37,653 nt of DNA, taken from contig QIAH01000349.1 in NCBI GenBank assembly GCA_003225465.1, positions 1 through 37,653 of the forward strand, in the 5' to 3' direction. The position numbers were made by a program, and so were the translations under genes. Positions within the stretch are counted from its first letter, which is position 1. Every line of letters begins with the position of its first letter. The notes beneath the pieces were generated by a model, which had not been told where the DNA came from, made no database searches, and saw nothing but the letters and a program-made list of their open reading frames with translations. Shown here piece by piece: positions 399 through 21,544 of this stretch. Origin of the DNA: Acidobacteriota bacterium (GTDB lineage Bacteria; Acidobacteriota; Terriglobia; Terriglobales; Acidobacteriaceae).

Positions 399-586
399 CC
401 TGTGGGGCGGAGGAGCGATGACGCCAACAGCGGGATCCGTTGAAGAACCGCTGACCCAATCGTCGTGCATCTAATAATGCATACAATTGACCACATGCAA
501 CAACTGGTGTAAATCTAAAAGGTTGCTTCGCAAGAAATTGAACTTTCCCTGCTCGGTTAGGGATTTGGAATCATGGAGGGCCTGAA

Positions 587-1576
587 ATGAGAGCTGGGCA
601 GCGAGCGGACGGCCAAAATGTTGCTATGGGCGCTAGCCCAAAGTCGAGAGATGGCATCTCTCCCGCCGGCGCGCCCTGGACAACGACCTTGGAGGCCCGG
701 GTTGCACAGGCGCAACCGAATCTTAGCGCCAGCCGGAAACGCCTCATCCGCGAGATATTAGACCATCCAGAAGACACGTACTTTTTGTCCTCTCGTGCCT
801 TGGCCAAACACTATGACGTGAACACGGCCACGATCGTGCGAACCGTCCAGGCTCTCGGCTACGAGCGCTTCGCCGATTTCACTGCCGATCTCCGCTCCCA
901 TTTCGTGACTCACATCACGCCCTATGCGGTCATGAAGTCGACCGCCCGGGAAAAGCGCAGCATCGCCGACCATATTAACCACAGCCTGGAAATGGATGAG
1001 CGCAATTTGCATGCCTTGCATTCGAGCCTGGATGTGGCACGCGTAACCGAACTGGCGAGACGAGTTCATCGTGCCCACCGAATCGTTGTCATTGGAATTG
1101 ATTTTGCCGCATCACTTTCTCACATGCTGGCCTATGCATTAGTTTCGATCGGCCTGGATGCAGAGGCTCCGGTCGGCTCGGCTGGCAATCTGCAACAAAA
1201 GATATTCCTGCTGGGGCCGAAAGATTTGCTGATCGCGATCAGTTTCGGGCGCTGCCTGCAGGATACGGTTGACGCGGTTCTGGTGGCTCACAAAAATGGC
1301 GTGCCAACGTTTGGCATCACCGATAGTGACAAGACCCCGATCGCCCGATTCTGCGATTCCTTCTGGATCACCTCCATTGCGAATCCTTCGTTTCACGGGT
1401 CATACGTGGCTCCGCTTGCGGCCATGAATGCGCTCCTGATCGCCTGCGCTCAAATCAAACCGCAACAATCTCTAGCAGTGTTGCGGCGCAAGGAACAGGA
1501 GTTCCGATCCCGGTGGTACTCTCCCAGGACTCCGGCAGAGGAACAGGCGGGGAATGGGCAGCGCAAGAAGGGCTGA
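587..1576 (+). CDS. MurR/RpiR-family transcriptional regulator (HTH-SIS)
   Basis: A 329-residue cytoplasmic regulator. Residues about 45-125 form the RpiR-type helix-turn-helix domain, with the recognition region around 68-95 (SSRALAKHYDVNTATIVR). Residues about 150-290 form a SIS domain (VVIGIDFAASLSHML, LLIAISFGRCLQDTV), which in this family binds phosphosugars such as MurNAc-6-phosphate. The first 40 residues are an unconserved extension. The start is chosen for the GGAGGG box 6 nt upstream; an internal ATG at 626 is the alternative. The gene is tail-to-tail with the DD-carboxypeptidase/D-aminoacylase fusion, only 49 bp apart. Because MurR-type regulators control cell-wall sugar recycling in other bacteria, it is a sensible candidate regulator of the adjacent D-amino-acid operon, but no direct evidence of its target is visible. 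Confidence 0.9.
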   Translation: MRAGQRADGQNVAMGASPKSRDGISPAGAPWTTTLEARVAQAQPNLSASRKRLIREILDHPEDTYFLSSRALAKHYDVNTATIVRTVQALGYERFADFTADLRSHFVTHITPYAVMKSTAREKRSIADHINHSLEMDERNLHALHSSLDVARVTELARRVHRAHRIVVIGIDFAASLSHMLAYALVSIGLDAEAPVGSAGNLQQKIFLLGPKDLLIAISFGRCLQDTVDAVLVAHKNGVPTFGITDSDKTPIARFCDSFWITSIANPSFHGSYVAPLAAMNALLIACAQIKPQQSLAVLRRKEQEFRSRWYSPRTPAEEQAGNGQRKKG

Positions 1577-1625: not shown

Positions 1626-4600
1626 TCAATGGCGATTTTTCGAGCCTGGACCACGAAGAACCTGGCCTGCTGCGACGCCGGTCAAGCGTCCGTTGTCGAA
1701 TTCGAGTTGACCATTCACAAAAACATACTTCACGCCCTCTGAGAGCTGGGCAGGATCCTCGTAAGTCGCCCGGTCCTGAATGGTTGCGGGATCAAATACG
1801 GTGATGTCGGCGAAATATCCTTCTTTCAGCAATCCTCGGTCACGCAGGCGTTCGCGCTGGGCGGGCAGGGAAGTCACTTTTCGAACGCCCTGTTCGAGCG
1901 ACAGCAAATGCAGATCGCGAACGTAGTGACCGAGAAAGCGAGGCATCGAACCGTAGGCGCGAGGATGGTTGTGAGGCTCGAATAAAAGCCCATCGAGCGA
2001 TACTTCATTGGCGTCGAGGCCAATGCTCGTCCAAGGCTGCTTCAATCCGTACTGCAGGTCGTTTTCGCCGGCGATGAAGTAAATTGCGCCCGTTTGAGCA
2101 TCGTCGGCGATCACCAGATCTATCAAGGCATCCACGGGATCTTTCTTTTCGTCTGCTGCAATCTGTGCGACGGTCTTGCCGTCATACTTCTTGAGCTGAG
2201 TCTTTTGAATTCCGGCGACTAGAACTCCGCTGCCGCCACCGCTATCCAGGAACAGATTTTCCCAGTCAGTATGCTCTGTTTTCAACTCTTGCTTGATTCT
2301 GGTGCGAGTGGACGGATCGTGCAGCCTTTCGAGAAGCTTCTTTTGCCCGCCATCAGCAACCCACGGTGGAAGGCTGGATGCCAGCGCAGTGCCGCCCGCC
2401 ACATACGGATACATGTCTGCGGAAACGTCCTGGCCGCCATCGCGCGCCGCCTGGATTTTGGCCACAATCTTCGGCATCGATCCCCAGCGACTCTTTCCGA
2501 TCACTTTCAAGTGAAATATCTCTACGGGCACATGTGCCTCGCGGCCGATATGGAGAGCCTCTTCGATGGCACTTTCCTCAGAGCGCCCTTCGCTGCGCAT
2601 GTGGGTGGCATAAATACCGCCGTATTGCCCAACGACCTTCGCTAATTCAACCAGTTCATCTGTTTTGGCATAGTGGCCCGGAGGATAGATGAGAGCTGTC
2701 GAAATTCCGAAGGCGCCCTGCTGCATCGCTTCCCCAACCATGTCCTTCATCTTCTCGAGTTCTTCCGGAGAAGGGGTCCGATTCGCATCGCCCAAGACTG
2801 CTTCACGAATTTGGGCCGCACCTACGTAGGTGCCGATGTTCAGCGGCGTGCCCGATTTCTGAAGCCGGTTGAAGTAGCCGTCGAGACTGGTCCAGTCCAC
2901 GGTCAAGTGGTATTGAGTGAGTGTGGGTGCGAGACTCGCCAGTGTGGTGTCATTTTGCGGCGCAATCGATGCGCCTTCGCCTGTGATCTCAGTGGTGATG
3001 CCTTGGGACAACTTACTGAGCGACCGGTTGTCGATCAACAGCGCCATTTCGGACTGCCCCAGCATGTCAATAAAACCCGGGGAGACGACCAGACCAGAAG
3101 CATCAATCGTGCGTTTCGCGGTGGCAGCACCCAAATTTCCGATTGCCGCAATCCGCTCACCTTCAATCGCGATGTCACCCGAAATCCAGGGATTCCCCGA
3201 GCCATCGATGATTCGCCCATTGCGAATGATTACGTCATACGAGGCGTTAGTAGAATTCGCAGGAGGCCCCAATGGGGCGCTATAGGCTGCACTCGCAATC
3301 TCGCCCAAAGCTTCGCCCGCCACTCTCTGCACCGCTTCAGGATCGTCCTTGGAAACCGAAACCATGTTGACGTAGAGCGCGAAGCCGAGATGCTCTCCCT
3401 TGGCGGTTTCCAGGTACCCTGCAAGGCCCTTACCCGTAATCATGAGGTTGTTGTTCAAGGAGTCGCCGACATCATAGGTTCCGGTTTTCGCGAATACATG
3501 TCCGGCTGCGGGAGAATTCACCTGGATCTTATAGAGCGTTCCATCACGGCCCATGATCGGCAACCCTCGCCGAAAATCCGCGAAGTCTTTCTGCTTCGAC
3601 ATGAAAAGCAGGTAACGAACCATGAAGTCCGGTGTGAAGAAGGCGTTGCCGCCGGCGCCATCGCTTTGCGAGGCTGCGGTTAAATCCAATCCCGCCTTCT
3701 TTAAAAACTCATTCTCGAGGTCAAAGCCCGCTTGGTCGACGTCTTTACTTTTGTGGGCAAGAAGCGCGCCGAGCAAGTACGGAGTTGTGCTGGCGTGCAG
3801 ATTCTGACTGAGCTTGAGCGTGATCTTGACGTCTTCCTTCAGCGGAGGCGATACATGTTCGGCGACCACGTTCTCCGGGCGATAGCTTGCAGCCAGCGCC
3901 TTGAAATCCTGAGGTGGTGTTTTGCGGTCAGAAGAAATCTCGACGCCATTCGAGCGCAGCGCTTCCCCAAAAACGATTGCTGCGAAACGGCTGGGTTCCG
4001 GGACGCGGTACGCCATCATTCCGAACGGCTTGCCGAGCGGGATGCTGCCGGTAACGGTTACGGCATGAGTCCCGTCGGGATTGGTTTTGTCCTCCGTGTA
4101 ATCGATGGTTGGTTTCGAATCTGCTTTGCCCGTGACAGCCTTGTTTGTGATCTGGATATAGCCAGTTTTCGGAGAGATCTCCAGATTGACCGGCGCGCCT
4201 TCACTCGCCCCCGGGCTCGCGATCACGTCAATCACATTGTCATTCACGACCATGGGAGAGATCACGACTCCCGTGCCCAACTCGGCAGTGCCTTCCGGAA
4301 AAAGGCTCGTATCCACAAGCAAACGTCCGGTCACTCGCTTAATACCCTTGCTCGTCACCTGTTGAGCCAATTCTTTGATCACCCGCAGCGGATCTCCTCC
4401 CACGCCTTTGCTGTCGGGTCCGCCATAGGAGTGGTCCATGTTTTCGTAGGCGAGGGTGCCATCGGATTGAATTCTTCCTGACAAATTCAGATCACCGCTG
4501 CCAACCAGCACCAGGTCGCCTTCCACGACACCTTTCTTGTTCACCGGGCCAGTGCGATAGACATAAGTATGAGATCGGTAATCACCTCCCAATAGCTCAA

Positions 4601-4883
4601 GCGCGGTGCCTTCGGTGACCAGCTTTGTGGTCGACCCAGGAACTATGAGTTTGCCCGCATTACGCTCATAGATAACTTTTCCCGAATCGATCGAGTAAAA
4701 CTCGATTCCGAAAGTCGAGTGCGCAAATTCCGGGCGATCCATAATTCGCTGAATCTGAGCGTCGAGGCCGAACTGGCCGGTCTCAGCCGGAGTCGACTGC
4801 GAAGCCAAGCCTGTAGTCGCAATCACCACCAGCAACAGTGCTCGTGCACCACATGCTGCCGAATGGCGCCCTATATTCAACAT
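1626..4883 (-). CDS. Fusion of PBP4-type D-Ala-D-Ala carboxypeptidase and N-acyl-D-amino-acid deacylase
   Basis: A 1085-residue exported protein with two enzymes in one frame. After a signal sequence (about 1-28), residues 35-535 resemble peptidase S13 (DacB/PBP4). SxxK is at S84-K87 (VPGSTTKL) and KTG at 466-468 (FAKTGTY). The usual DGSGLSxxN stretch is reduced to DGAGGN at 408-413, so the SxN serine seems absent. A short linker (about 536-548) leads to residues 549-1085, an amidohydrolase of the D-aminoacylase family. It has THMRSEG (H761), EIFHLKVIG (H791), a late metal-site-like GLDANE (D957) and the C-terminal FADITVFD strand. The usual FIDxHxH metal motif reads FIDMLGQSE at 604-612. Each half is near normal family length, so this is a genuine fusion, not a remnant. 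AAGGAG lies 5 nt before the ATG. It is the last gene of the operon, 11 nt after the racemase. It likely releases D-amino acids from wall peptides in the periplasm. Confidence 0.88.
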   Translation of the reverse strand: MLNIGRHSAACGARALLLVVIATTGLASQSTPAETGQFGLDAQIQRIMDRPEFAHSTFGIEFYSIDSGKVIYERNAGKLIVPGSTTKLVTEGTALELLGGDYRSHTYVYRTGPVNKKGVVEGDLVLVGSGDLNLSGRIQSDGTLAYENMDHSYGGPDSKGVGGDPLRVIKELAQQVTSKGIKRVTGRLLVDTSLFPEGTAELGTGVVISPMVVNDNVIDVIASPGASEGAPVNLEISPKTGYIQITNKAVTGKADSKPTIDYTEDKTNPDGTHAVTVTGSIPLGKPFGMMAYRVPEPSRFAAIVFGEALRSNGVEISSDRKTPPQDFKALAASYRPENVVAEHVSPPLKEDVKITLKLSQNLHASTTPYLLGALLAHKSKDVDQAGFDLENEFLKKAGLDLTAASQSDGAGGNAFFTPDFMVRYLLFMSKQKDFADFRRGLPIMGRDGTLYKIQVNSPAAGHVFAKTGTYDVGDSLNNNLMITGKGLAGYLETAKGEHLGFALYVNMVSVSKDDPEAVQRVAGEALGEIASAAYSAPLGPPANSTNASYDVIIRNGRIIDGSGNPWISGDIAIEGERIAAIGNLGAATAKRTIDASGLVVSPGFIDMLGQSEMALLIDNRSLSKLSQGITTEITGEGASIAPQNDTTLASLAPTLTQYHLTVDWTSLDGYFNRLQKSGTPLNIGTYVGAAQIREAVLGDANRTPSPEELEKMKDMVGEAMQQGAFGISTALIYPPGHYAKTDELVELAKVVGQYGGIYATHMRSEGRSEESAIEEALHIGREAHVPVEIFHLKVIGKSRWGSMPKIVAKIQAARDGGQDVSADMYPYVAGGTALASSLPPWVADGGQKKLLERLHDPSTRTRIKQELKTEHTDWENLFLDSGGGSGVLVAGIQKTQLKKYDGKTVAQIAADEKKDPVDALIDLVIADDAQTGAIYFIAGENDLQYGLKQPWTSIGLDANEVSLDGLLFEPHNHPRAYGSMPRFLGHYVRDLHLLSLEQGVRKVTSLPAQRERLRDRGLLKEGYFADITVFDPATIQDRATYEDPAQLSEGVKYVFVNGQLEFDNGRLTGVAAGQVLRGPGSKNRH

Positions 4884-4894
4884 TCATGCTCCTT

Positions 4895-6025
4895 CTACGC
4901 GCTCACCACTGCGCGCGTGGCCGTCCAGGTTCGGGACCGGCATGTCAAGCGTTCGATGAAGTTACGCTTCACTCGGAAACCCAGCCCCGGCGTTTGGGGA
5001 ACGCGAATGGTTCCGCTGCGAGATACTTCCACCTCGGGCTCGATGACATCTTCTGCCCAATATCGCTGGCTGGCCGAGACGTCTCCGGGCAGAGTGAAAC
5101 CCGGCTGCGTCGACATGGCGATGTTATGAGCCCGGCCAATGCCCGATTCGAGCATGCCTCCGCACCATACCGGTATCCCGTGCTCACGGCAGACATCATG
5201 GACCTGCCGGGCGCTGGTATGCCCGCCCACACGCCCTAGCTTGATGTTGATAATCCGGCAGGCCGCCAGTTCGATTGCCGTCTGTGCATGCCGCGCATTG
5301 GTGATGCATTCATCCAGACAAATGGGGGTGTTGATCAGCGCCTGCAATTTTGCGTGGCTATGGATCTCGTCCCATTGCAGAGGTTGCTCAATCATCAGGA
5401 GGCGAAATTCATCCAGCTTTCTTAGATGAGGGGCGTCCTTGAGTTCGTAGGCGGAGTTGGCGTCAACCGAGAGCAGGATTTCAGGGAACTCCTTCCGGAC
5501 CGCGGCGACGAAAGCCACGTCCTTTCCCGGCTTGACCTTCAGCTTAATTCGCTGATACCCACTCTCCAGCTCTTCGCGTACTTTGACGACAAGGTGCTGC
5601 GGGGTTTCGCGAATCCCCAACGAGACGCCGCAGACGATTTCCTGGCGTGATCCTCTCAGGAGAGTATGTAAAGGCACACCCTTCTGCTGCGCTTCCGCAT
5701 CCCACAAGGCATTTTCCACGCCGGCTTTGGCCATTTCGTGCCCGCGGAATCCTGCCAGCAGTGCAGGCAGCTCCGTTGCGGTTGAAACTTCCTTTCCGAT
5801 CAGCACCGGCGCGATGTAGTCGCTAATGACGTGCCAGGCCGTGTCGGTCGTCTCCGAGTTGAACAGCGGGCTTTCCAGGCTGGTGATCTCTCCCCATCCG
5901 CTTACTCCATCGGCTGCCAGTTCGACCAGCAGGATTCTGCGTTCTTGCGTGACTCCAAAGCTGGTCTCAAACGGTGTCTTGAGACGCATGCGAAGTTCTC
6001 GCAGCGTAATCATCTCGATTTTCAT
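4895..6025 (-). CDS. N-succinylamino-acid racemase / o-succinylbenzoate synthase-like enolase-superfamily enzyme
   Basis: A 376-residue cytoplasmic enzyme of the muconate-lactonising subgroup of the enolase superfamily. The full catalytic set is visible: KxK at 161-163 (RIKLKVKPG), metal ligands D188 (SVDAN), E213 (MIEQP) and D238 (CLDEC), and the general base K262 (NIKLGRVGG). The C-terminal GGMLESGIGRAHN at 289-301 is characteristic of the NSAR/OSBS family and argues against a dipeptide epimerase. No menaquinone genes are nearby, so racemisation of N-acylamino acids is favoured over MenC function. Start: ATG at 6025 with GGAG 5 nt upstream; an in-frame upstream codon at 6058 lacks this. The gene overlaps the end of the GNAT gene by 59 bp, which implies translational coupling. 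Predicted role: interconvert N-succinyl-D- and N-succinyl-L-amino acids. Confidence 0.9.
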   Translation of the reverse strand: MKIEMITLRELRMRLKTPFETSFGVTQERRILLVELAADGVSGWGEITSLESPLFNSETTDTAWHVISDYIAPVLIGKEVSTATELPALLAGFRGHEMAKAGVENALWDAEAQQKGVPLHTLLRGSRQEIVCGVSLGIRETPQHLVVKVREELESGYQRIKLKVKPGKDVAFVAAVRKEFPEILLSVDANSAYELKDAPHLRKLDEFRLLMIEQPLQWDEIHSHAKLQALINTPICLDECITNARHAQTAIELAACRIINIKLGRVGGHTSARQVHDVCREHGIPVWCGGMLESGIGRAHNIAMSTQPGFTLPGDVSASQRYWAEDVIEPEVEVSRSGTIRVPQTPGLGFRVKRNFIERLTCRSRTWTATRAVVSA

Positions 6026-6761
6026 AAGGCTCCAGAATGTAGGTGGCGTAATCCGCATCTAATTCGAATGCTGTTGCCGCGAAGGAGCTGTTGAACAGCA
6101 GCTCAAGCTCAAGACGAAGTCGGACTTGGATTTGGCGTGCAGTCCCCGGCTCGGTCTTGCAGATTTCGCGAATGCGCCGAGGCAGACGAATGGTGCGCAC
6201 ATCCGGTGTTGACCGTGGTGGCCGCCCTTCCAGGATCTGTTGAACGCGAGATTTCCGAATCCACCACTCGGCCACCAGGCGGTCCGTCGGCAGGCCTGCA
6301 TCCAGTTGACTGGTTGTGTTTCCGTAAACGTTCGGCAGGTATTCGCGCACAATTGCGCCTAGATGGGTGATGTTGAAATTCGCGTTTCCCAACTGAAGAG
6401 GGTCGAAGGTCCACTCGACGAGATCGAAGCCCCGTTCGAGCGCGTCTTCTCGTTGTGCCAACTTCAGCTTCTTGCCAATACCTTGACCTTGGTACTCAGG
6501 CAGGACTGCCGTCATGTGAGAGTGCAAGTAGATACGCCCTTCATGAACGCCCGGAAATGCCAGAAGAAATCCAACTATTTTGTCTTGTTCGAAGGCGCCC
6601 AGCACCTGGCCGCCAGTTCGATGAGCAACCACGAACATGTGATGAGGCACGACCTCTAGTTCCGAACTCCTCCAAACACGTTGTTGCAGGTCCATGCAGA
6701 CGCGTGCTTCGTCATCAGTCATCAACCTGCGGATTGTGATTTGTTCCGGATGCGAGTTCAT
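5967..6761 (-). CDS. GNAT-family acyltransferase, putative D-amino-acid N-succinyltransferase
   Basis: A 264-residue cytoplasmic protein. The acyl-CoA-binding motif A is QGQGIGKKLK at 91-100, after strand YLHSHMTAVLPEY. The segment EWTFDPLQLGNANFN (116-130) followed by LGAIVREYLPNVYG and LPTDRL is characteristic of the GNAT subfamily found beside NSAR-type racemases. In Geobacillus such a partner transfers succinyl from succinyl-CoA to D-amino acids, and the racemase and an L-desuccinylase then yield the L-form; here that assignment is by family and context. The gene begins 24 nt after the permease and overlaps the racemase start by 59 bp. No strong ribosome binding site is seen before the ATG at 6761, so coupling to the permease is likely. 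The C-terminal 60 residues are less conserved-looking and include the overlap. Confidence 0.85.
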   Translation of the reverse strand: MNSHPEQITIRRLMTDDEARVCMDLQQRVWRSSELEVVPHHMFVVAHRTGGQVLGAFEQDKIVGFLLAFPGVHEGRIYLHSHMTAVLPEYQGQGIGKKLKLAQREDALERGFDLVEWTFDPLQLGNANFNITHLGAIVREYLPNVYGNTTSQLDAGLPTDRLVAEWWIRKSRVQQILEGRPPRSTPDVRTIRLPRRIREICKTEPGTARQIQVRLRLELELLFNSSFAATAFELDADYATYILEPYENRDDYAARTSHASQDTV

Positions 6762-6784
6762 ACGGCAATCAATGTGGGGGCATT

Positions 6785-8158
6785 TCAGCTAGATTTGTCT
6801 TCCACTCGTGCCAGTCTCCGCCAGGCGAAATAGGCGGGAACTCCGGTGAGAACAATCGCAGTGCCTACGAAGGCGCGGAGCGGTTGGTGAACGATGGTAT
6901 TCGCGACGAAGAGACCGACGATCGCGATAAAGCAGGACGGTGTCCAGGGATATCCCGGCACCCGGTAAACCGTCCCCGTCGTTTTACGTTTGCGATAGAC
7001 AAATATGCTGGCGGCCGCCAGGGCGTAAAATGCCCAACCCACGAATACCACGTATGTTAAAAGTTGCTCAAACGTCCCCGTAATGGCCAGCAATGACGCC
7101 CATACGGTGGCAGCGAGGATCGCGAAGGCCGGCGTGCCGAACTGTGGATGCACTTGGGCCAACTGTTGGAAGAACACCCCGTCCTTCGCCATCGCGTAAA
7201 AAACACGAGGTGCGGTAAGGGTTATCGAGTGGGCTGCGCTGAAAATCGAAATCAGGATTGCCAGAGTCACGAATCTGGCCAGCACCGGACTAAGGGTTGA
7301 GAGCGCGCTCGCGGCCACGCGGCTGGAATTCGCGACCCCATCCGCGCCCAGGGCGGCTACGTAGCCAAGATTCGCGAGCAGGTAAACTCCAATCAGAATC
7401 CCAATTCCCGACATGAACGCCAGCGGAAAGTTACGCTGGGGATGAATCGTCTCGCCTGCTGTAAAAGTCGCGTACTGCCATCCTTCGTATGCCCATAGAA
7501 CGCTGACCATCGCCGTGCCGAACCCTGCCCAGATACTGCCAACCTCAGCACTGGGAGGCATTCCGACCTTGAGTGGATGAACAGCATGAGAGAACAACAG
7601 CAGACCCGTCGCCATGGCGAGGATGGCTGCGACCTTGATCGCAGTTGTCAGATTTTGCAGGTTAGCGCTTTGACGCGTGCCTCGCACATTGACCACCGCG
7701 ATGACGCCGATCATCAGAAGAGATACGACCTTGGCCGCCCAGGGCTTCAGTTCAATCAGTCCGCCCAGATAATTGCTGAACGCGACCGCCAGCGTGGCCA
7801 CGGATCCGGTGCTGACGACGAAGAAGAGAATCCAGCCAAAGAGGAAGCCCGCGAGACCTCCAAAACAGTCGCGAATGTAGATGTAAAGGCCCCCGGCCTC
7901 GGGCTTCGTGGCGCTGAGTTCGCCGTAGGTGAGAGCTCCCAGGAGCGACAAAAATCCTCCGATGACCCAAACCATCAAGGCCACCGTAACTGAATTTCCC
8001 ACGGAGTGCAGAACTGCGCTCGGGACGAGGAAAATTCCCGAGCCAATCACCGTTCCAACAATGAGCAACACCAGATCACGAAGGCCGAGAACTCGGCGCA
8101 ACTCTGGCCCAGTGCTATTCAGTCTAATGTGGCCCGGGGCTGTCGTCTCCACAGGCAC
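6785..8158 (-). CDS. APC-superfamily amino-acid permease
   Basis: A 457-residue inner-membrane transporter with about 12 hydrophobic segments. The N-terminal GLRDLVLLIVGTVIGSGIFL (25-44) is the signature first helix of APC transporters, where the GSGIF break binds the amino-acid backbone. YIYIRDCFGGLAGFLFGW near residue 100 is typical of the LAT/SteT-like group. It would bring amino acids, here presumably D-amino acids or alanine, from periplasm to cytosol. The call uses GTG at 8158, two nt after the receptor stop codon; a second GTG at 8152 is possible. No clear ribosome binding site is seen, which fits translational coupling to the receptor gene. Substrate cannot be read from sequence. Confidence 0.9.
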   Translation of the reverse strand: MPVETTAPGHIRLNSTGPELRRVLGLRDLVLLIVGTVIGSGIFLVPSAVLHSVGNSVTVALMVWVIGGFLSLLGALTYGELSATKPEAGGLYIYIRDCFGGLAGFLFGWILFFVVSTGSVATLAVAFSNYLGGLIELKPWAAKVVSLLMIGVIAVVNVRGTRQSANLQNLTTAIKVAAILAMATGLLLFSHAVHPLKVGMPPSAEVGSIWAGFGTAMVSVLWAYEGWQYATFTAGETIHPQRNFPLAFMSGIGILIGVYLLANLGYVAALGADGVANSSRVAASALSTLSPVLARFVTLAILISIFSAAHSITLTAPRVFYAMAKDGVFFQQLAQVHPQFGTPAFAILAATVWASLLAITGTFEQLLTYVVFVGWAFYALAAASIFVYRKRKTTGTVYRVPGYPWTPSCFIAIVGLFVANTIVHQPLRAFVGTAIVLTGVPAYFAWRRLARVEDKSS

Positions 8159-8160
8159 GT

Positions 8161-11100
8161 CTAGAAGACCAGGCGCAGCGCAAATTGCAGGATTCTCGGA
8201 TTTGTGCTGGTTGCCGTGATGGCGCCAAAAGTTGGGTCTGGTGCGACCAATCCCAGCGCCGCCGCACTTAAACCCAGATCAAGATTCGGATTGGCAAACT
8301 GGGGATGATTGAATGCGTTGAAAAAGTCGGTGCGAAATTGTAGCTGAAGTCTTTCGGTCAGATTGGTGTTCTTGGCCAACCCGATGTCCCAATTGTTCTG
8401 ATCCGGTCCGACGACTTCCCCAATTGCGCTATTGCCGAAAGCCGTCCCGATCCCGTCATCCCCGATTACGGCATAGTTGCTGAGATCAAAACAGGAGCTG
8501 TTGATGAAATTGTTCAGTTTCTTCTGCACCGAACCCGAAGTGACAAAGCGGTTGCCACAGCCGGAAGCAGAAGCGGGAGCCCGATCGGTCAGAATCCCGA
8601 ACACGTTTTGGACGTTGGTCGCTGTGACCGTCAAGCGCTGGCCAGACTGAATCGTGGTAACGCCGGCCAGCGACCAACCGCCGAGTGTTTTGCGGGCGAA
8701 AGCGCCATGTCCGGTAATTTCCGGGAACTGATAAACCCAGCTCAAAATGAAGCGCTGCGGGCGGACAAAACTGTCCCAACCATACCGCGCCCGAGGGTTG
8801 TTCTGATCACCCACCGCAGTGCCTCCATCAAGACTGCCGCTAACGAAGCTCTGCGTCGTTGCCAGCATACTTGACCAGGTGTAGGAAGCAAGGAACTGCA
8901 GACCCTTGCTGAAACGTTTGTTCAAGCTTATGGCCAAGCCGTTGTACCAGGAGGCGCCCGTCGAATCTACTTGCAACGCCGCTGTGGATACTCCCGGAAC
9001 GAGCGCTCTTTGCGTGACGTTGGAGAAATTCATGTCTGTCGCTCCATTCACGGGGTGAGCGACGCTCGCGGGGAAGGCTTGATTGAAGTTGCGTAGTTCG
9101 AACAGGTGTGTTCCTCTCGCGCCTTGATACCCGATCTCCAGCACAAGGTTCGGCACTATCCCGATCTGGGTGTTCAGATCGAATTGCTGAGTCGCCGGAG
9201 GTTTGACATTGATCGACACATTGGCAAAAGAGAGGCACCCCGGATCCAGCACCGAGGTGCAAGTCGCCAGTGAGTAGCTCGGAAATGACGGCAGGACGGG
9301 CGCTGGGGGAAACGGATTAGAAAACGGAATCGCGATGCCTTGTGTAAGGCGCACCTGTCCAAATGGAGGCGAGGTCAGCTCCTGAAAAACCGGTTGCCCC
9401 GTGGTGCGCGAGTAATAGATCCCATAACCGCCCCGTAAGACGACGTGATCGTTACCCGGCAACTGCCAGGAGAAACCAACGCGTGGTCCCCACGTATTTT
9501 GTCCGAGGCCTCGGGTGGCGGCTTCGTTGGGCGCACGCACAACTCCTGGGGGGAGGGCTGCTCCGCGGAAATTGGACGCCACTACGTAGCCTGCCTGACT
9601 GCCAGCTCCGGTATGGTCTGCCTGCAGTGGATCGAAACTGGAATTCCTTCCGAGATTATCTGAGAGATCCCCGAGCCGCTCATAGCGTAGTCCGAGGTTG
9701 AAGGTAAATTTTGGAGTGATCTTTATATTGTCCTGGGCGAACAGATTGCCGTCCCAGGTACGGTAATAGCGATCGAAGAGGCCCGGCACATCCAGCGAGT
9801 AGCTCCCGTTCCCCAGCAAAAACTGCCCGTAGTCTGGAAATTGAAGACCGCCCAGGAAATGAAATTGAACTTGATTGATCTGCGAGCGCTCAATCCCACC
9901 ACCGACATGGAGCGAATGCCGTCCGTGAGCCCAGAAAAGAGAATCGTTGAAGTTATAGAAATTCTGAGCCAGGTTAAGGTTCTGCCCTCCTCCGCCAGTC
10001 TCGAATGATCCCGCGACTCCGATTTCGGGATGGGAATCGTCAAAGGAAGGCGCCGTTACACCAATATCGGAAAACTTGAATACCTCGGCCTGCCCCAGAA
10101 GCCCAACCAGGCGGTGATAGCCGAGCGTCGCCTCGTTCACGAGGCTGGACGAGATCGAGTACCGGTGAGATAGGGAAACCACCCGGTAGCGATTATCGGT
10201 GCTTTCGGGAAAACCAGGGACCGCATTTCCCGCGATATTCCCGTTCGTGGCAAAGGTCGCAATCTGACTGGTATTCGAGAAGAAAAAACTGCCTGAGAGC
10301 GAACTCTTCGCGCTCTGCAGATAGTCAATGTTGATGAGGAACTGGTCTTCGCTGAAGGGGCAAGCAGTACTGAAGGAAGCCTTGCCCTCGGTCGAGAATT
10401 GCTCGAGGGTAGGATTTGAAACTGCATTCACCGTTTGTGGACTGGGAACTACGTAATCACCATTGGGCAGCTTGAGATTCAAAAGAGCTACTGCTTGCGG
10501 GCTGATGTTGGAGCCATCGGGAGCGATGGCGCCCGCGCTTGGACCCGAGAACATGGCGCCCAAGGCGGCGGGCGAGCGGTCATTCGTAAACGGAGGCAGG
10601 AACACAGTGCTGATGCAGCTGCCGGCGCCCAGCCCGTTGCGCTGGCGAGTACCTTGATAGGACCCGAAATAGAAGAGCCGGTCACGCACAATATGCCCGC
10701 CCAGGCTGCCGCCAAATTGATTCTGCTTGAGCGCGGCGCGCGGCTCGTGCTGTTGATTCAGGAAATAGTCGTTAGCATTCAGAGCGTCATTGCGTAAGAA
10801 CTCGAAGAGCGTCCCATGCAGCTGATTGCTGCCGCTCTTTGTCACAAGATCGACATTTGCGCCTGAGTTTCGCCCGTAGGAGGCGTCATATTGGCCCGTC
10901 TGAACCTTGAACTCCTGAATCGTGTCTGGATTCGGCACAGGAACGCCGCCGCTGAGAGCGCCCGATCCCATGAGGTCGTTCACTTCCACGCCATTGAGTT
11001 GGTAATTGTTGTCGTTGGTTCCGCTTCCGTGGGCCGAGAACCCATGATCGGCGGCGGCTTCGCTCCCCGTGCCTCGTCCCAGCGCCGTGGCATCCGTCAC

Positions 11101-11604
11101 TTCAGCTGAGACTCCGGGCGACAAGCCAATAATCTGGGTGTAGTTGCGGGAGGCGAGCGGCAGAGCGGAAATCGCCCGCCCGTCTGTGACTGTGCCTTCC
11201 GCGGAGTCCACCGTATCCAGCAGTTCGGGCTCTGTGTTCACAGTGACAACTTCCGATACTGCGCCCACTTCCAGTCGCACGTTCACGCGCGCGGTCTCCG
11301 TGACCGTGACCTGTACGTGCGGCCGCACGAGTTCTTTGAAGCCAGTTTTGGACGCCTTCACGGTGTACGAGCCCGGCGGAAGCAGAGGAAATAGATAACT
11401 TCCCGTCGAAGAAGACGAAACGTTTCGGGAATCTCCTGTAGCCTCGTTCGTGGCGGTGATGCCGACCCCGGCCACGACCGCTCCCGACGGATCGGCCACA
11501 GTGCCTGTAATTGCGCCTGTACTGGCGCTTTGTCCCGCGCTGGCTTGAACAAGCGCTAAGAGCGCAACCACCATTGCGATGATACGAATGAGCGATGGGT
11601 TCAC
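8161..11604 (-). CDS. Oar-like TonB-dependent outer-membrane receptor with carboxypeptidase-regulatory domain
   Basis: 1147 residues from the GTG at 11604. The order is a signal peptide (about 1-25, ending QASAGQ), a carboxypeptidase-regulatory-like Ig fold (GAITGTVADPSGAVVAG onward, to about 115), a TonB plug (ELLDTVDSAEGTV to about 260) and a very long beta-barrel ending in an aromatic strand (QFALRLVF). This is the acidobacterial Oar/CarboxypepD_reg receptor layout. The open frame extends 30 codons upstream to an ATG at 11694, but the GTG is preferred because AAAGG lies about 6 nt before it and it places a normal signal peptide at the N-terminus. It is the first gene of the five-gene operon and is separated from the permease by two nt. 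It likely imports peptide or muropeptide material across the outer membrane; the ligand is inferred from context. Confidence 0.9.
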   Translation of the reverse strand: MNPSLIRIIAMVVALLALVQASAGQSASTGAITGTVADPSGAVVAGVGITATNEATGDSRNVSSSSTGSYLFPLLPPGSYTVKASKTGFKELVRPHVQVTVTETARVNVRLEVGAVSEVVTVNTEPELLDTVDSAEGTVTDGRAISALPLASRNYTQIIGLSPGVSAEVTDATALGRGTGSEAAADHGFSAHGSGTNDNNYQLNGVEVNDLMGSGALSGGVPVPNPDTIQEFKVQTGQYDASYGRNSGANVDLVTKSGSNQLHGTLFEFLRNDALNANDYFLNQQHEPRAALKQNQFGGSLGGHIVRDRLFYFGSYQGTRQRNGLGAGSCISTVFLPPFTNDRSPAALGAMFSGPSAGAIAPDGSNISPQAVALLNLKLPNGDYVVPSPQTVNAVSNPTLEQFSTEGKASFSTACPFSEDQFLINIDYLQSAKSSLSGSFFFSNTSQIATFATNGNIAGNAVPGFPESTDNRYRVVSLSHRYSISSSLVNEATLGYHRLVGLLGQAEVFKFSDIGVTAPSFDDSHPEIGVAGSFETGGGGQNLNLAQNFYNFNDSLFWAHGRHSLHVGGGIERSQINQVQFHFLGGLQFPDYGQFLLGNGSYSLDVPGLFDRYYRTWDGNLFAQDNIKITPKFTFNLGLRYERLGDLSDNLGRNSSFDPLQADHTGAGSQAGYVVASNFRGAALPPGVVRAPNEAATRGLGQNTWGPRVGFSWQLPGNDHVVLRGGYGIYYSRTTGQPVFQELTSPPFGQVRLTQGIAIPFSNPFPPAPVLPSFPSYSLATCTSVLDPGCLSFANVSINVKPPATQQFDLNTQIGIVPNLVLEIGYQGARGTHLFELRNFNQAFPASVAHPVNGATDMNFSNVTQRALVPGVSTAALQVDSTGASWYNGLAISLNKRFSKGLQFLASYTWSSMLATTQSFVSGSLDGGTAVGDQNNPRARYGWDSFVRPQRFILSWVYQFPEITGHGAFARKTLGGWSLAGVTTIQSGQRLTVTATNVQNVFGILTDRAPASASGCGNRFVTSGSVQKKLNNFINSSCFDLSNYAVIGDDGIGTAFGNSAIGEVVGPDQNNWDIGLAKNTNLTERLQLQFRTDFFNAFNHPQFANPNLDLGLSAAALGLVAPDPTFGAITATSTNPRILQFALRLVF

Positions 11605-12065
11605 GGGCGGCCTTCTTTCGAAGAAAGATTTCCCGGTACCGGCCGGGCGTAATGCGCGTGAAACAGGCAAATTCTGCAATCTTCCGTTCCGCATCGGGCG
11701 TTTCAGTCGCCGACCTTTATTCCTGAACGATCGAGGCAGGTGGCATCGGAAAATGCCATGCGTTCACGCAATGGCCAAAAAGTAGAACCGGGTGTCGGGC
11801 TCTGTCAAGAGAAATCTCACTAAATGGTGCCTGTCAGATGTTTCGTGCATCATATGTTGCATAGCCAGTGTCGAAACAATCCTGTGCAGAAGCAGGTAGG
11901 CGCAACAAGTGATGCATTATATTGACAGTGTGCACCACATAGTGTAACACTCGATCCCTTTAACAATGGTGGTTTCAATCGCGAACGACGGCAGACTGAA
12001 TCCAAAAGAAAAGGTCGGCACACTTCAGCTATCCATGCAACGGTGAGAAACAGGAGGCGAAGGTT
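11605..12065. promoter_or_regulatory. Divergent promoter region between receptor operon and serine hydrolase
   Basis: No gene is supported in this 461-bp stretch. Plus strand: TTGACA (11922-11927), 17 nt, TAACAC (11945-11950) is a fair promoter for the serine hydrolase, leaving a leader of about 110 nt. Minus strand: TTGACA read from 11808 to 11803, 18 nt, then TACTTT is a plausible promoter for the receptor operon. Between the two promoters lies a near-perfect 16-bp palindrome centred on CATATG (11846-11861). The layout suggests joint control of both transcription units. Confidence 0.5.
11846..11861. promoter_or_regulatory. Palindrome between divergent promoters, candidate operator
   Basis: TGCAT-CATATG-TTGCA is symmetrical except for one T/T pair. 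It sits just upstream of the putative minus-strand -35 box at 11803-11808 and about 60 bp upstream of the plus-strand one. Its sequence is unlike the TTGACA-type repeats near the RpiR gene, so a different regulator would be needed. Function inferred from symmetry and location. Confidence 0.3.
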
Positions 12066-14084
12066 GTGACTAACAGAGACAAATGGTTTTTCTTTGTTCG
12101 CAATTTCTTCCTTCGAATGACACCCTGCTTGCTCGTCATTACTATTACTATTCTTCTCGCGTCCACCTTCGCACAATCGGTCTCGCCAAACCCGTCAAGT
12201 TCGAAACCGCCTGCCTCCCACAAGGAAATCCCTGGAGAAGTCTCCCATCATGAACTCTCGCCCAACGACATCGAATCCTTCCTCGACGGTCTCGTGCCGC
12301 TGCAATTAGCCAGAGAAGATATTGCGGGCGCTGTCATTGCAGTTGTAAAGGATGGGAAGGTTCTCTTCGCAAAAGGCTACGGTTACTCCGACGTTGCAAA
12401 ACGAACTCCAGTTTCGGTGGATGCCACCCTGTTTCGTCCGGGCTCAGTCAGCAAGTTGATCACCTGGACCGCGGTAATGCAGCAGGTGGAACAAGGAAAA
12501 CTGGATCTCGATCGCGACGTCAATGACTACCTGGATTTCAAGATTCCTCCCGCCTACAACAAGCCCATCACCCTGCGCAATCTGATGACCCATACGCCGG
12601 GTTTCGAGGAAATGGGAGAAGAAGTATTCGTCCCAGATGTGAAAGATCTGAAGCCGATCGGCGATTTTCTCAAACACCGCGTTCCCGCGCGCATTTTTCC
12701 TCCAGGAACAACGCCGGCGTATTCGAATTACGGTGCTACTGTCGGGGGCTACATCGTGGAGAGGGTGTCGGGACAATCGTTCAATGATTATGTGGACGAG
12801 CACATCCTGAAGCCGCTGCACATGACCCATTCCACCTGCCGCGAGCCTCTCCCCGACGAGTTGAAGCCCCTGATGTCGCAAGGCTACAAAGTGGCATCCG
12901 AGCCAGCGCAGCCGTTCGAAGTTGTGGAGGCGTTACCCGCTGGAAGTTGCTCTGCCACCGCCGCAGACATGGCGAAGTTCATGATCGCGCACCTGGAGGG
13001 CGGGCGCTACGAGGGTGCTCAGATCCTGCGCCCCGAAACCGTCGAGTTAATGCATACTCGCCAATTCACAATGCGCGATGACATGAATGGCATGGCGGCA
13101 GAGTTCTACGAGGAAACACGAAACGGGCACCGAATCATCGGTCATGCCGGTGACACGCTGGCCTTTCATACCGACCTGCACCTGATGCCCGATGCGCAGC
13201 TCGGTTTTTACGTTTCCTACAACAGCCTGGGGAAGGGAGAGGGTCGCCCGCGCGAATGGGTCTGGCATCAATTCCTGGATCGCTACTTTCCCTACACACC
13301 GCCCTCGGGGGTGTCGCCGGCCGACGCCAAGCAGGACGCGCAAACCCTCGATGGCAGGTACCTCGTAACTCGCCGTGCTGAAACCACTCTTCTTACTATG
13401 TTCAACCTGATCGAGCAGACGAAAGCCTATCCGAACTCCGATGGAACCATCAGCGTCGACGCCTTGAAAGATCTGAATGGAGCGCCCAAGAAATTTCGCG
13501 AGATCGGACCCCTGCTCTTTCGTGAGGACGGCGGTCAGGATCGGATTGCGTTCAAGCGTGACAATAGCGGGCGAATGGCTCTGATCATAGATTTTCCCTT
13601 CTTTATTTTTCAGAAGGTAGCGTGGTACCAAAGTCAGCCATTTGTGACGACGGTCGTCGGTGGAAGCGCAGCCGTATTGTTGCTGGCGTTGCTGTTGTGG
13701 CCGATCGGAGCGATCCTGCGGCGGCACTATCGCAATCCGCTGAATCTTGATCCGTCGCAGCGGCGCTTGCGACTGCTCGTCCGGCTCGGGTGTGCCGCCC
13801 TGCTAGTTTTCGTAGTCTCCCTGGTGGTGTTCTTTCTGATGGCATTTGAACACAATAGCCTGGCTACTCCCAGCTACAATCCGCTTTTACGCCTGCTGCA
13901 ATTCATAGGTTGGATTGGTGTGGTGGGTACGATCGTCGCGCTCTACGCAGCCGTACGCAGTTGGCGGGAGACAAACCTTGGCACCTGGACCAGGCTGGGA
14001 AATTCGCTGCTGGCTCTGTCCTGTTTCATCCTGGTCTGGTTCGCCTTCGCTCACCACATGTTTACCTGGAACCTGCTGTACTAA
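12066..14084 (+). CDS. Membrane-anchored serine hydrolase of the beta-lactamase / DD-peptidase (S12) fold
   Basis: 672 residues starting at GTG, with GGAGG 8 nt upstream. The N-terminus (about 1-38) is a long signal sequence or anchor. Residues 65-410 are the class C beta-lactamase-like hydrolase: SxxK at S127-K130 (RPGSVSKL), YxN at Y219-N221 (PAYSNYG) and HAG at 360-362 (IIGHAGD), all intact. About 110 residues of an accessory domain follow, then four hydrophobic segments (about 520-545, 570-592, 600-622, 638-662), giving an enzyme domain facing the periplasm above a membrane bundle. The family includes DD-carboxypeptidases, D-aminopeptidases and esterases. Its divergent position beside the D-amino-acid operon favours a D-peptide substrate, but sequence alone does not decide. 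Confidence 0.88.
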   Translation: MTNRDKWFFFVRNFFLRMTPCLLVITITILLASTFAQSVSPNPSSSKPPASHKEIPGEVSHHELSPNDIESFLDGLVPLQLAREDIAGAVIAVVKDGKVLFAKGYGYSDVAKRTPVSVDATLFRPGSVSKLITWTAVMQQVEQGKLDLDRDVNDYLDFKIPPAYNKPITLRNLMTHTPGFEEMGEEVFVPDVKDLKPIGDFLKHRVPARIFPPGTTPAYSNYGATVGGYIVERVSGQSFNDYVDEHILKPLHMTHSTCREPLPDELKPLMSQGYKVASEPAQPFEVVEALPAGSCSATAADMAKFMIAHLEGGRYEGAQILRPETVELMHTRQFTMRDDMNGMAAEFYEETRNGHRIIGHAGDTLAFHTDLHLMPDAQLGFYVSYNSLGKGEGRPREWVWHQFLDRYFPYTPPSGVSPADAKQDAQTLDGRYLVTRRAETTLLTMFNLIEQTKAYPNSDGTISVDALKDLNGAPKKFREIGPLLFREDGGQDRIAFKRDNSGRMALIIDFPFFIFQKVAWYQSQPFVTTVVGGSAAVLLLALLLWPIGAILRRHYRNPLNLDPSQRRLRLLVRLGCAALLVFVVSLVVFFLMAFEHNSLATPSYNPLLRLLQFIGWIGVVGTIVALYAAVRSWRETNLGTWTRLGNSLLALSCFILVWFAFAHHMFTWNLLY

Positions 14085-14377: not shown

Positions 14378-17300
14378 GTGACTTGCAATTCGAATTTCAG
14401 AACGCTGTGCATGGTCGTCGTAGCCTTCACTGTTCTCTTCGACGTTGACCCCATACCCGTAAATGCACAAGTGGCTGGAGGTACGATGACAGGCACAGTC
14501 ACCGACAGCAGTAGCCGAGTCATTACCAATGTTCAGATTGCGATTGAAAACGTCGCAACTAGCGTGAAACGCGAAGTCACCACCAATGAGGAAGGTTTCT
14601 ACTCGGCGCCCAATCTGTTGCCGGGAACCTATATCGTAACGTTCTCGGCGAGCGGATTTAAGACCGAGGTGCGGCGAGGAATTGCGCTGACCGTTGGAGC
14701 ATCGGTAGTCTTGGACCTTTCTCTCAGGGTCGGCTCCCTTACCGAAAAGGTAATAGTGGAAAGCGAAGTACCCGCCGTGCAGTTGTCGAGCTCGGACATT
14801 AGTGCGGTGGTAAATGCAACGACAGTCCGCGAACTGCCCCTGAACGGGCGCAGCTGGACTGACCTGGCTCAGCTTCAACCCGGCGTGAGTGCGATCCACA
14901 CTCAACCGGATTTCTCGGCGGGCACGGATCGTGGCAATCGCGGCTTCGGCCAGCAACTCACGATCTCGGGCGCGCGGCCGCAGCAAAACAATTACCGGTT
15001 GGATGGAGTTAGCCTCAACGATTATGCCAATGGGGCACCAGGAAGCGTGTTGGGTGGAAATCTGGGTGTGGACGCGATCCAGGAGTTTTCAGTACTAACC
15101 ACCAACTACTCGGCGGACTACGGCAAAACCTCGGGTGGCGTGGTCAACGCGATCACCCGATCAGGAACGAATCAGATCCACGGGAGCGCCTACGAGTTCC
15201 TACGGAACAGCGCGCTGGATTCCAAGAACTACTTCGATACCGGCAAGATTCCCCCGTTTAAGCGAAATCAGTTTGGCGGCGCGATCGGCGGTCCGATCGT
15301 CAAGGACCACACGTTCTTCTTTGCCGACTATGAAGGCATTCGGCAATCTTTGGGCATATCAACACTCGCTTTCGTTCCTTCGGTGAATGCCCGTAACGGG
15401 CTGATCTGTTCGAACCCAGCCGGGGATCCCAGCGGTGCTTGCTCAACCCATCAGATAACCTTGGATCCTGCAGCCGCTTCGTACCTCACCTTTTACCATT
15501 CACCCGATCCCAATACTGAAATCGGCAATGGAGATATCGCAAGCTATACGTTCTCAGGACAACAGGTCGTCAACGAAAACTTTTTCACCGCACGCCTTGA
15601 CCACAAATTCTCCGAGAAAAACAGTCTGTTCGGTACCTACATGTTCGATCGGACGCCGTATTCCTCCCCCGACGGTTTGAACAATGTTGAATTCGATACT
15701 CTGACGGCGAGGCAGTTTTTGTCGTTGGAAGACACTCACATTTTTACTCCTCGACTGGCGAACTCGATTCGCATCGGCGGCAATCACGAAGCGGTCGACA
15801 ATAACAAGAGCCTGAAGGCAATCAATCCGGACGCCACCAGAATCGATCTTGGTGTGGGTGGCACGGCTTTTGCAGGACGGGCGGCTGCCCAGGCTTTAGT
15901 AGGTGGCCTCAGTGACTTCACTGGCGGTATCGGCGGGAGCCCGACATATCTCGACCGATGGAACTCCATCCAGGCCTATGACGATGCCTTCCTGACCAAG
16001 GGTAAGCATTCGTTGCGATTTGGCGCGGCTGTCGAACATATGTCTCTGAATGTGGTCGCGGATACTGATCCGAACGGCATCTGGAACTTCAACAGCGTGG
16101 AAGGATTTCTTCTTAACCAGCCCACAAGATTCCAGGGTGGTATTGCCAGCACACTTTCCCCGCGCAATCTTCGGCAAACTCTTTTCGGAGCATATTTGCA
16201 AGACGACTGGCGCGTGCGATCGAACCTGACCTTGAATCTCGGCCTGCGATACGAGATGTCTACCGTTATTAGCGAAACTTCAGGCAAGCTGGCGAATCTG
16301 CGGAACATCACTGATGCCACGGCTCATCTGGGCAACCCTTTCTTCAGCAACCCCACGCTCAGGGATTTCGAGCCGCGTGTCGGCTTTGCATGGGATCCCC
16401 TCGGCAAAGGCAGAACCTCCGTTCGCGGAGGGATCGGCCTGTTTGATGTGCAGCCTTTGCCCTATCAGTTCCCACTACTGGTAACGCAAGCCATTCCATT
16501 TTTTTCGTATACGGTGGTCAGGAACCCGGTTGACCTTTGCGGATGTCCACATCCCTTTTACAACTTTGGGGGCCAGGATATTACGTTTGCGGTCAACCGC
16601 CTGCGCACCACCTACCTCGAACCTCATCCCAAGCGTAACTACGTGATGCAATGGAACCTGAATGTGCAGCAACAAATCACTCCCAACCTGGCAGGTATGC
16701 TTGCCTATGTTGGCTCGCGCGGCATTCATCAGCCATTCCGGGTAGATGATGCAAATCTGGCCATTCCGACCAAGACATCAGCGGGATATGTGTGGCCCTA
16801 CATTACCGACCCCAACGATCCGAACTTTGGCGGTCCCGTCGATCCTATTAACCCGAATTTTGGTTCGGTCCGAGGAATGTTTTACCGCGGCCATTCTCAG
16901 TACGATGCACTGGAAGGACAACTGGTGAAACGGATCAGCCATGGCTTTCAAGTCCAGGGCACCTTCACCTGGAGTAAGAGCATCGACACCAGTTCGGCCA
17001 CTGTAGCTGGGGATGCGTTTGGCAATTCCATCTCGAGCTTGCACTGGTTTGATATGAGGCTCAGTCGGGGCCTCTCGGACTTCAATGTTGGACGCGCGGT
17101 GGTGATCAACGGCACATGGGAAGTACCTACTCCGAAGTCTATCGCTGGGCCGGCGCAATGGGCACTTGGAGGCTGGCAACTCGGACTGATCTTCACGGCC
17201 AGTGACGGGGTTCCTTTCACTGCCACGTGGGGAACCGGGTCAGATCCGGCCAACACGAACAGCGGTGACGATTGGGCATTTCCGAATCGGCTGGGTGGGT

Positions 17301-17749
17301 CAGGTTGCAAGAGTCTCACGAATTCAAGGAATCCCAACGCGTATATCAAAACGGAGTGCTTCGCTGTCCCCACAGCTCCCGACATGGCTTTTTGGAATCA
17401 ATACTGTGATCCGCTCCCGCCAAGTCTTGGAGCACCTGTCGCATTTCCAACGTGTTTCAATCTCCGCGGGAACGCCGGCCGCAATATCCTGATCGGCCCG
17501 GGTCTCACTGATCTGGACTTCTCACTATTCAAGAATAACTACATCCGACGGATTTCCGAGAGATTCAACATCCAATTCCGTGCCGAGATTTTCAATATTC
17601 TGAATCACGTGAATTTCGCTCCGCCATCCACCCCGACCAACACCGACGTCTTCCTAGGCGACGGCACTCCCAACCCTGTGGCTGGGGCACTTACGAAGAC
17701 CACCACGAGCGCGCGCGAGATTCAGTTTGCCGTAAAGGTGATCTTTTAG
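14378..17749 (+). CDS. Second Oar-like TonB-dependent receptor with carboxypeptidase-regulatory domain
   Basis: 1123 residues from a GTG at 14378 with GGGAG about 8 nt upstream. It has a signal peptide (about 1-31, ending VNAQ), a carboxypeptidase-regulatory-like domain (TMTGTVTDSSSRVITNVQIA, to about 115), a plug with LPLNGRSWTDLAQLQPGVS near 155 and DAIQEFSVLTTNYSADYG near 235, and a long barrel ending in REIQFAVKVIF. It has the same architecture as the receptor at 8161-11604 but clearly different sequence, so this is not a recent duplication. It is followed by an MFS transporter about 100 bp downstream and begins the plus-strand cluster that faces the PrpD/D-malate-dehydrogenase genes. The ligand is unknown; an organic acid or its carrier is an inference from those neighbours. 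Confidence 0.9.
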   Translation: MTCNSNFRTLCMVVVAFTVLFDVDPIPVNAQVAGGTMTGTVTDSSSRVITNVQIAIENVATSVKREVTTNEEGFYSAPNLLPGTYIVTFSASGFKTEVRRGIALTVGASVVLDLSLRVGSLTEKVIVESEVPAVQLSSSDISAVVNATTVRELPLNGRSWTDLAQLQPGVSAIHTQPDFSAGTDRGNRGFGQQLTISGARPQQNNYRLDGVSLNDYANGAPGSVLGGNLGVDAIQEFSVLTTNYSADYGKTSGGVVNAITRSGTNQIHGSAYEFLRNSALDSKNYFDTGKIPPFKRNQFGGAIGGPIVKDHTFFFADYEGIRQSLGISTLAFVPSVNARNGLICSNPAGDPSGACSTHQITLDPAAASYLTFYHSPDPNTEIGNGDIASYTFSGQQVVNENFFTARLDHKFSEKNSLFGTYMFDRTPYSSPDGLNNVEFDTLTARQFLSLEDTHIFTPRLANSIRIGGNHEAVDNNKSLKAINPDATRIDLGVGGTAFAGRAAAQALVGGLSDFTGGIGGSPTYLDRWNSIQAYDDAFLTKGKHSLRFGAAVEHMSLNVVADTDPNGIWNFNSVEGFLLNQPTRFQGGIASTLSPRNLRQTLFGAYLQDDWRVRSNLTLNLGLRYEMSTVISETSGKLANLRNITDATAHLGNPFFSNPTLRDFEPRVGFAWDPLGKGRTSVRGGIGLFDVQPLPYQFPLLVTQAIPFFSYTVVRNPVDLCGCPHPFYNFGGQDITFAVNRLRTTYLEPHPKRNYVMQWNLNVQQQITPNLAGMLAYVGSRGIHQPFRVDDANLAIPTKTSAGYVWPYITDPNDPNFGGPVDPINPNFGSVRGMFYRGHSQYDALEGQLVKRISHGFQVQGTFTWSKSIDTSSATVAGDAFGNSISSLHWFDMRLSRGLSDFNVGRAVVINGTWEVPTPKSIAGPAQWALGGWQLGLIFTASDGVPFTATWGTGSDPANTNSGDDWAFPNRLGGSGCKSLTNSRNPNAYIKTECFAVPTAPDMAFWNQYCDPLPPSLGAPVAFPTCFNLRGNAGRNILIGPGLTDLDFSLFKNNYIRRISERFNIQFRAEIFNILNHVNFAPPSTPTNTDVFLGDGTPNPVAGALTKTTTSAREIQFAVKVIF

Positions 17750-17848
17750 CGTAAGGATAGGTATGCAGTCGGGAATTCGGTCGGATGGTTGGCCACCGCT
17801 GCTTGACCGCGGGCTGTCCCGCCCTCAACAAAAGGAAGCAAGTTAGCC

Positions 17849-19198: not shown

Positions 19199-19310
19199 AG
19201 GCTCTGGCAGAGTGGCGATTGTAGGTTTACGCCCACAGCCGAACGACGGTCTCTTTTCATGCAGTCTTAAGAATCATTGGGAAGAATTGGTTGAATCGAG
19301 GATAGATTCC

Positions 19311-20342: not shown

Positions 20343-20348
20343 ACTGTT

Positions 20349-20365
20349 TTTAATGTTGCGTTAAT
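20349..20365 (+). promoter_or_regulatory. Direct repeat TTTAAT-N5-GTTAAT, candidate response-regulator site
   Basis: Two TTAAT hexamers repeat with an 11-bp period in the gap between the two propeller genes. Direct repeats with this spacing are the usual binding pattern of OmpR/PhoB-class regulators, and the form resembles the known PmrA box. An OmpR-type regulator is encoded at 24484 in this window, but no link is shown. The repeat also sits inside a CTGAAC/GTTCAG inverted repeat (arms starting near 20338 and 20371). Confidence 0.25.
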
Positions 20366-20447
20366 GCACGGTTCAGACTGATGTGGGCCTAATGGTGGAC
20401 GCAATCTGTGCTCATCACTAACAGTTTCTTCAAACCTGGAGATCAAA

Positions 20448-21467: not shown

Positions 21468-21479
21468 GGGGGGCGCGGG

Positions 21480-21510: not shown

Positions 21511-21544
21511 TCTCAGCGTCATGCCCGGTACCTAATGAGCCGGG

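Follow-up and report, generated by a model that had tools for sequence, protein, structure and literature searches.

A recurrent, RpiR-linked gene set in Acidobacteriota that may salvage D-amino acids from D-residue peptides

Several well-described bacterial systems handle D-amino acids and the peptides that carry them. In Geobacillus and Deinococcus, D-amino acids are converted to their L-forms in vivo by a GNAT succinyltransferase, an N-acylamino acid racemase (NSAR) and an L-succinylase. The tandem of NSAR and L-succinylase has been described as a biocatalyst (PMC7431475), and the ddpXABCDF genes of E. coli encode a D-Ala-D-Ala dipeptidase together with a transporter (PMC8743547). Here we describe a locus in a 37,653-nt window of an Acidobacteriota bacterium ("the window" being the whole stretch of DNA analyzed, contig C172 of a 6.15 Mb genome in 590 contigs), in which genes for an outer-membrane receptor, an amino-acid permease, a GNAT acyltransferase, an NSAR, a fused S13-amidohydrolase enzyme and an S12 serine hydrolase lie beside a gene for an RpiR-family regulator. 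Judging from sequence comparison, we think it probable, though by no means certain, that these genes form an RpiR-controlled regulon by which D-amino acids are salvaged from peptides with D-residues, the stem peptides of peptidoglycan being the likeliest source. Below, G, C and L denote genomes (G000 is the host), contigs and loci, and f and g denote families and genera.

The resemblance to each described system is partial. As in the Geobacillus/Deinococcus pathway, a GNAT gene adjoins the NSAR gene and the racemase has the K263-x-x-R266 pattern; unlike that pathway, the cluster contains no L-succinylase and adds periplasmic peptidases, a permease, a receptor and an RpiR regulator, and most class members carry a separate core GNAT-NSAR pair as well. 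With E. coli ddp it would share the use of D-Ala-D-Ala-type dipeptides, and VanX/DdpX-type M15 enzymes are found in related loci. The cluster differs from ddp in having no ABC transporter and, in the window, no M15 gene, in its S13 and S12 enzymes and NSAR conversion, and in an RpiR protein that replaces NtrC/RpoN. It has an RpiR-family regulator in common with the E. coli MurR-murQP system, but includes no MurQ or PTS gene, MurQ being encoded elsewhere in the host genome.

The set is not peculiar to its host. Matching the proteins of the window against open reading frames from other loci showed the same genes, rearranged, in at least three families, which refutes the possibility, raised in the preliminary description, that the homologs are scattered and never clustered. 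In G033 (L043) all seven genes are present in another order, with the S12 and receptor genes on one side, followed by those for RpiR, GNAT, NSAR, permease and fusion. L125 (G319) combines RpiR, S12, fusion, NSAR, GNAT and permease genes with a different receptor, and L039, L040, L046, L052, L127 and L166 each hold at least four genes, counting both the set and its M15 extension. Receptors 46-49% identical to that of the window occur at four other cluster loci. Of the 399 class genomes, about 33, distributed over three families, carry the fusion gene itself (a count that includes G061). Within 8 kb of 33 fusion genes lie genes for RpiR (17), M15 (11), NSAR (7), S12 (6), GNAT (5) and permease (5), counts that are not independent because many of the loci belong to one genus; in control neighborhoods, RpiR, M15, S12 and linked NSAR genes were each found in 0 of 28. 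The gene set is real, recurrent and apparently co-regulated, and all of its enzyme kinds are already known. No description of the combination, the fusion or the paired switch discussed below was found in the open papers searched, and queries joining D-amino acids and D-aminoacylase in Acidobacteria, or D-amino acids with peptidoglycan and TonB-dependent receptors, returned nothing there. As a separate observation, gamma-glutamyltranspeptidase genes lie near 15 fusion loci of genus g47 (L132-L142, L154-L156, L158).

Evidence for shared control comes from a 16-bp palindrome, TGCACCATATGGTGCA, that occurs in pairs 30 bp apart flanking a -35-like box, with two pairs in the divergent promoter and one before the regulator gene. 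This operator escaped a search for near-perfect inverted repeats within individual promoter regions and came to light when loci were compared. The three top-ranked window sites of a matrix trained on other loci only (L038, L039, L043 and L046) were three intergenic sites of the locus. With spacings of 20 to 44 allowed, the best three pairs in 37.6 kb all had a spacing of 30 (11816/11846, 11901/11931 and 466/496), and none of 200 simulated windows matched even the score of the third. A fourth matrix match, at 4845-4860 inside the fusion gene, lacks a second site at the 30-bp distance and was discounted as one that may have arisen by chance. Pairs spaced by 30 bp are also present at L038, L039, L052 (two) and L125, with a 29-bp pair at L046, and at most paired loci a TTGAC element lies a few bases ahead of the downstream palindrome. 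L043 has a single strong site without a 30-bp pair.

A search of 61 relatives for the combined promoter-operator pattern gave three matches in the host genome, two at the locus and one at C539, the last directly preceding the only close S12 paralog in the host (49% identity; the next ones reach 32%). Among the 399 class genomes, with at most one mismatch allowed, ten matches were found, nine of them at cluster genes: the three in the host; fusion loci in G275 and G319; a site upstream of a frame-broken fusion gene in G166; a G194 cluster with S12-M15, NSAR, permease, RpiR, receptors and S12; an RpiR gene adjoining a receptor gene in G307; and an S12-receptor locus in G174. The tenth, in G157, is unrelated. 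Since the pattern was partly drawn from the window sites and L039 (G275), these are not independent, whereas G166, G194, G307, G174, G319 and C539 are. The unlinked C539 paralog (G000:C539:2690-4842, L092), which has the same 30-bp operator pair ahead of it, has a reading frame broken into two parts, through either mutation or the assembly.

The regulator was earlier labeled MurR/RpiR. The family part of that label holds, HTH_6 and SIS domains both being present; MurR orthology was rejected, with a score of 30.8 bits against a cut-off of 408 and murQ unlinked on contig C39. Proteins of the RpiR family are tetramers with near-palindromic binding sites; their usual ligands are phosphosugars, and most act as repressors (PMC12713135). 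A tetramer suits two operators three helical turns apart, and the pair before the RpiR gene implies autoregulation. Because MurQ is encoded elsewhere, MurNAc-6-P could be made by the host. The MurQ etherase gene (G000:C39:10472-13903) is close to two further S12-type genes, possibly a separate wall-recycling locus.

What the enzymes act upon is suggested first by the peptidases. The S12 hydrolase carries SxxK, YxN and HxG motifs (HAG or HGG), with one N-terminal and four C-terminal hydrophobic segments. In this family an HxG third motif fits DD-peptidases or D-aminopeptidases better than beta-lactamases, which have KTG. Resemblance to class C beta-lactamases, and the D-configured residues that beta-lactams contain, might be taken to mean that the locus serves catabolism or detoxification of these drugs. 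This we consider barely credible: the class C score is 100 bits against a cut-off of 415, the third motif is HxG, and D-Ala-D-Ala dipeptidases recur at the related loci. On the cut-offs and the third motif, the beta-lactamase assignment was rejected and the protein placed in the S12 family. In genus g47 the gene between those for RpiR and the fusion encodes a VanX-type D-Ala-D-Ala dipeptidase (M15, PF01427) with SRHNRGCAVD and EWWH intact, which we take to be the VanX metal motifs, and at L127, L144 and L166 an M15 domain is fused to the cluster S12 enzyme. Together, the S13, S12 HxG and VanX-type M15 enzymes point to D-Ala-D-Ala-type peptides, and from these we infer wall stem peptides. The earlier proposal of D-amino-acid or wall-peptide salvage is therefore supported by the recurrence, by an operator shared at some loci and by the dipeptidases, while the wall origin of the peptides remains a conjectural part of it.

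The fusion protein joins two domains of quite different standing. Its first half is an S13 DD-peptidase of PBP4 type (Pfam 198 bits; TIGR00666 143 against a cut-off of 108; STTK, SQN and KTG intact), preceded by a signal-peptide-like N-terminus. S13 enzymes of this type classically work on the cell's own wall; with that and the signal-peptide-like N-terminus in view, the locus might recycle or remodel the wall of its host, with NSAR and GNAT disposing of released D-Ala and no foraging involved. That role seems improbable, as the host has a separate S13 gene (36% identical) at C495 and the set is accessory and comes with a receptor of its own. At L042-type loci and at L049/L050 (G040, G043), S13 genes with 50-57% identity to the first half stand alone, lacking the amidohydrolase domain.

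The second half, called a D-aminoacylase in the preliminary description, is a clear homolog of the Alcaligenes faecalis enzyme (1RJP) over the whole domain (E ~1e-90) and belongs to one superfamily with it and with OngB (9kb1), but its metal site has changed and the name is not established. D-aminoacylases are of subtype V, with Cys/His/His and an Asp, and OngB requires both HxH histidines (PMC12017989). H220, H250 and D366 are kept here; HxH reads LxQ, and Cys96 is gone, the segment reading TGE-G, in each of the eight fusions and in the majority of stand-alone relatives. With three active-site residues missing, the domain was kept out of the D-aminoacylases. The conserved Glu of TGE-G might serve as a substitute metal ligand, and a role on stem peptides is conceivable because L-Ala-D-Glu is formally an N-acyl-D-glutamate. 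An alternative would make the domain an OngB-like carbohydrate or sugar-acid deacetylase in a pathway of amino-sugar catabolism, with RpiR sensing a phosphosugar: OngB is a GlcNAc1A deacetylase with the D-aminoacylase fold (PMC12017989), phosphosugars are the usual RpiR ligands (PMC12713135), and a stand-alone domain about 70% identical to the second half lies, at L143, L145, L146 and L149, beside an S12 enzyme, of DUF3471 type in L143, and a protein with two SIS domains that resembles aminosugar-phosphate isomerases or deaminases. Such catabolism appears very improbable, since both histidines needed by OngB are absent and NSAR, GNAT, permease, S12, S13 and M15 are all amino-acid or peptide families. 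The outcome is a recurrent fusion enzyme with an altered active site.

The NSAR gene calls for a correction of its annotation. An NCBI model names the protein o-succinylbenzoate synthase, and by sequence alone it passes (TIGR01928, 342 bits against a cut-off of 200.65). That said, menB is above cut-off in none of the 61 relatives and MqnA/MqnD, of the futalosine route to menaquinone, in all 61, so that a menaquinone role would have no MenB/D/E-type pathway to serve; MenC was rejected, and the protein is a predicted N-acylamino acid racemase. Aligned to 1SJA, it keeps KxK, the Asp/Glu/Asp metal ligands, the second lysine K263 and R266 (Amycolatopsis numbering), which we take to mark NSAR activity, and KxGR is kept in all NSARs examined. 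A core GNAT is present in 56 and a core NSAR in 57 of the 61 relatives, usually adjacent, and the pair adjoins mazG in the three core neighborhoods checked, the other neighbors being unrelated; the menC label on these pairs is probably wrong in futalosine-using relatives. The window pair is a second copy; elsewhere in the host, another GNAT is encoded at C327 and another NSAR, truncated by the contig end, at C313. The accessory NSARs form one clade (support 100/98) across f1, f3 and f7 that is separate from the core copies in those genomes; its members are the window protein, L052, L039 (=L123), L125 (=L096), L154, L156 (=L122), L046 (=L033) and L043 (=L008), several entered without group label and under duplicate locus ids.

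In the salvage route that we favor, the receptor would carry peptide fragments into the periplasm, where the S12 enzyme and the S13 domain, joined in some relatives by a VanX-type M15 enzyme, would cleave D-Ala-D-Ala-type bonds and the amidohydrolase domain would free a further N-acylated D-residue. Free D-amino acids would be taken up by the permease and N-acylated by the GNAT, probably from succinyl-CoA; NSAR would epimerize N-acyl-D- to N-acyl-L-amino acids, and an unlinked M20-type deacylase would liberate the L-amino acid. RpiR, probably as a tetramer, would repress the genes from a pair of palindromes that enclose the -35 region at a spacing of 30 bp, and respond to a ligand that is probably a phosphosugar. 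A more specific version can be offered tentatively, as a possibility on the doubtful side: the receptor would feed in foreign stem peptides, the fusion would process them in two steps, its altered center cleaving L-Ala-D-Glu, acylation and racemization would stand in for oxidases, and RpiR on its paired operators would sense a wall-sugar phosphate.

Several observations weigh against this salvage route. The fusion loci L126, L128, L129, L131 and L153 have no partner within 8 kb, the window has no M15 gene, and the altered metal site of the amidohydrolase has been described above. The operator was not seen at most g47 loci, whose RpiR proteins are only 35-39% identical, so the paired switch is not universal. 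No M20-type L-deacylase or L-succinylase lies in the operon, with 19 M20 matches elsewhere in the host genome; the conversion of D- to L-forms proposed earlier needs a separate deacylase. Finally, general peptidases (S9, S41 tricorn, S15) at L040, L041, L046/L047, L125 and L144 fit a wider peptide diet, and the clusters yielded no identifiable peptidoglycan glycosidase. The same enzymes might then scavenge D-residue peptides from outside the wall, such as non-ribosomal peptides or racemized soil proteins, a reading that we regard as unlikely given that the recurrent DD-peptidase types (S13, S12 with HxG, VanX-type M15) indicate D-Ala-D-Ala-like bonds.

The layout of the locus is given in Table 1. 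Gene order, strands, open frames and families agree with the preliminary description in both reading frames and family profiles, as do intergenic gaps of 2 nt and 11 nt; the second gap is 23 nt rather than 24. The 59-bp overlap of GNAT and NSAR genes holds provided that NSAR starts at Met12, which is likely because homology to 1SJA begins there. Farther along the window, positions 14378-24178 encode a second Oar-like receptor, an MFS transporter, two beta-propeller proteins, an isocitrate/isopropylmalate-type dehydrogenase and an MmgE/PrpD protein, and resemble a separate organic-acid locus.

Table 1. Genes and predicted operators of the locus (window coordinates)
Feature	Position	Strand	Basis and remarks
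Predicted operator pair (466-481, 496-511; spacing 30 bp), TTGACC at 487-492	466..511	+	Matrix; upstream of RpiR gene
RpiR-family regulator, HTH_6 and SIS	587..1576	+	Pfam; convergent with operon
S13-amidohydrolase fusion	1626..4883	-	Profile and homology; S13 domain residues ~41-517, amidohydrolase ~545-1080
NSAR (enolase superfamily)	4895..6058	-	Likely start 6025 (Met12); accessory clade
GNAT acyltransferase	5967..6761	-	Pfam; predicted D-amino acid N-acyltransferase
APC amino-acid permease	6785..8158	-	Family profiles
Oar-like TonB-type outer-membrane receptor, CarboxypepD_reg, plug and OMP_b-brl_4	8161..11694	-	Pfam
Predicted operator pair (11816-11831, 11846-11861; spacing 30 bp)	11816..11861	-	Receptor-proximal side of divergent promoter
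Predicted operator pair (11901-11916, 11931-11946; spacing 30 bp), -35-like TTGACA at 11922-11927	11901..11946	+	S12 side of divergent promoter
S12 serine hydrolase (beta-lactamase fold), SxxK/YxN/HxG	12066..14084	+	Divergent from operon

Beyond the host, the o-succinylbenzoate synthase label on NSAR genes is very likely an error in relatives with futalosine-based menaquinone synthesis. The work names a set of genes, their regulator and a precisely defined DNA switch, all directly testable. Much of the organic matter in soil, where Acidobacteriota abound, consists of D-amino acids and peptides from bacterial walls.

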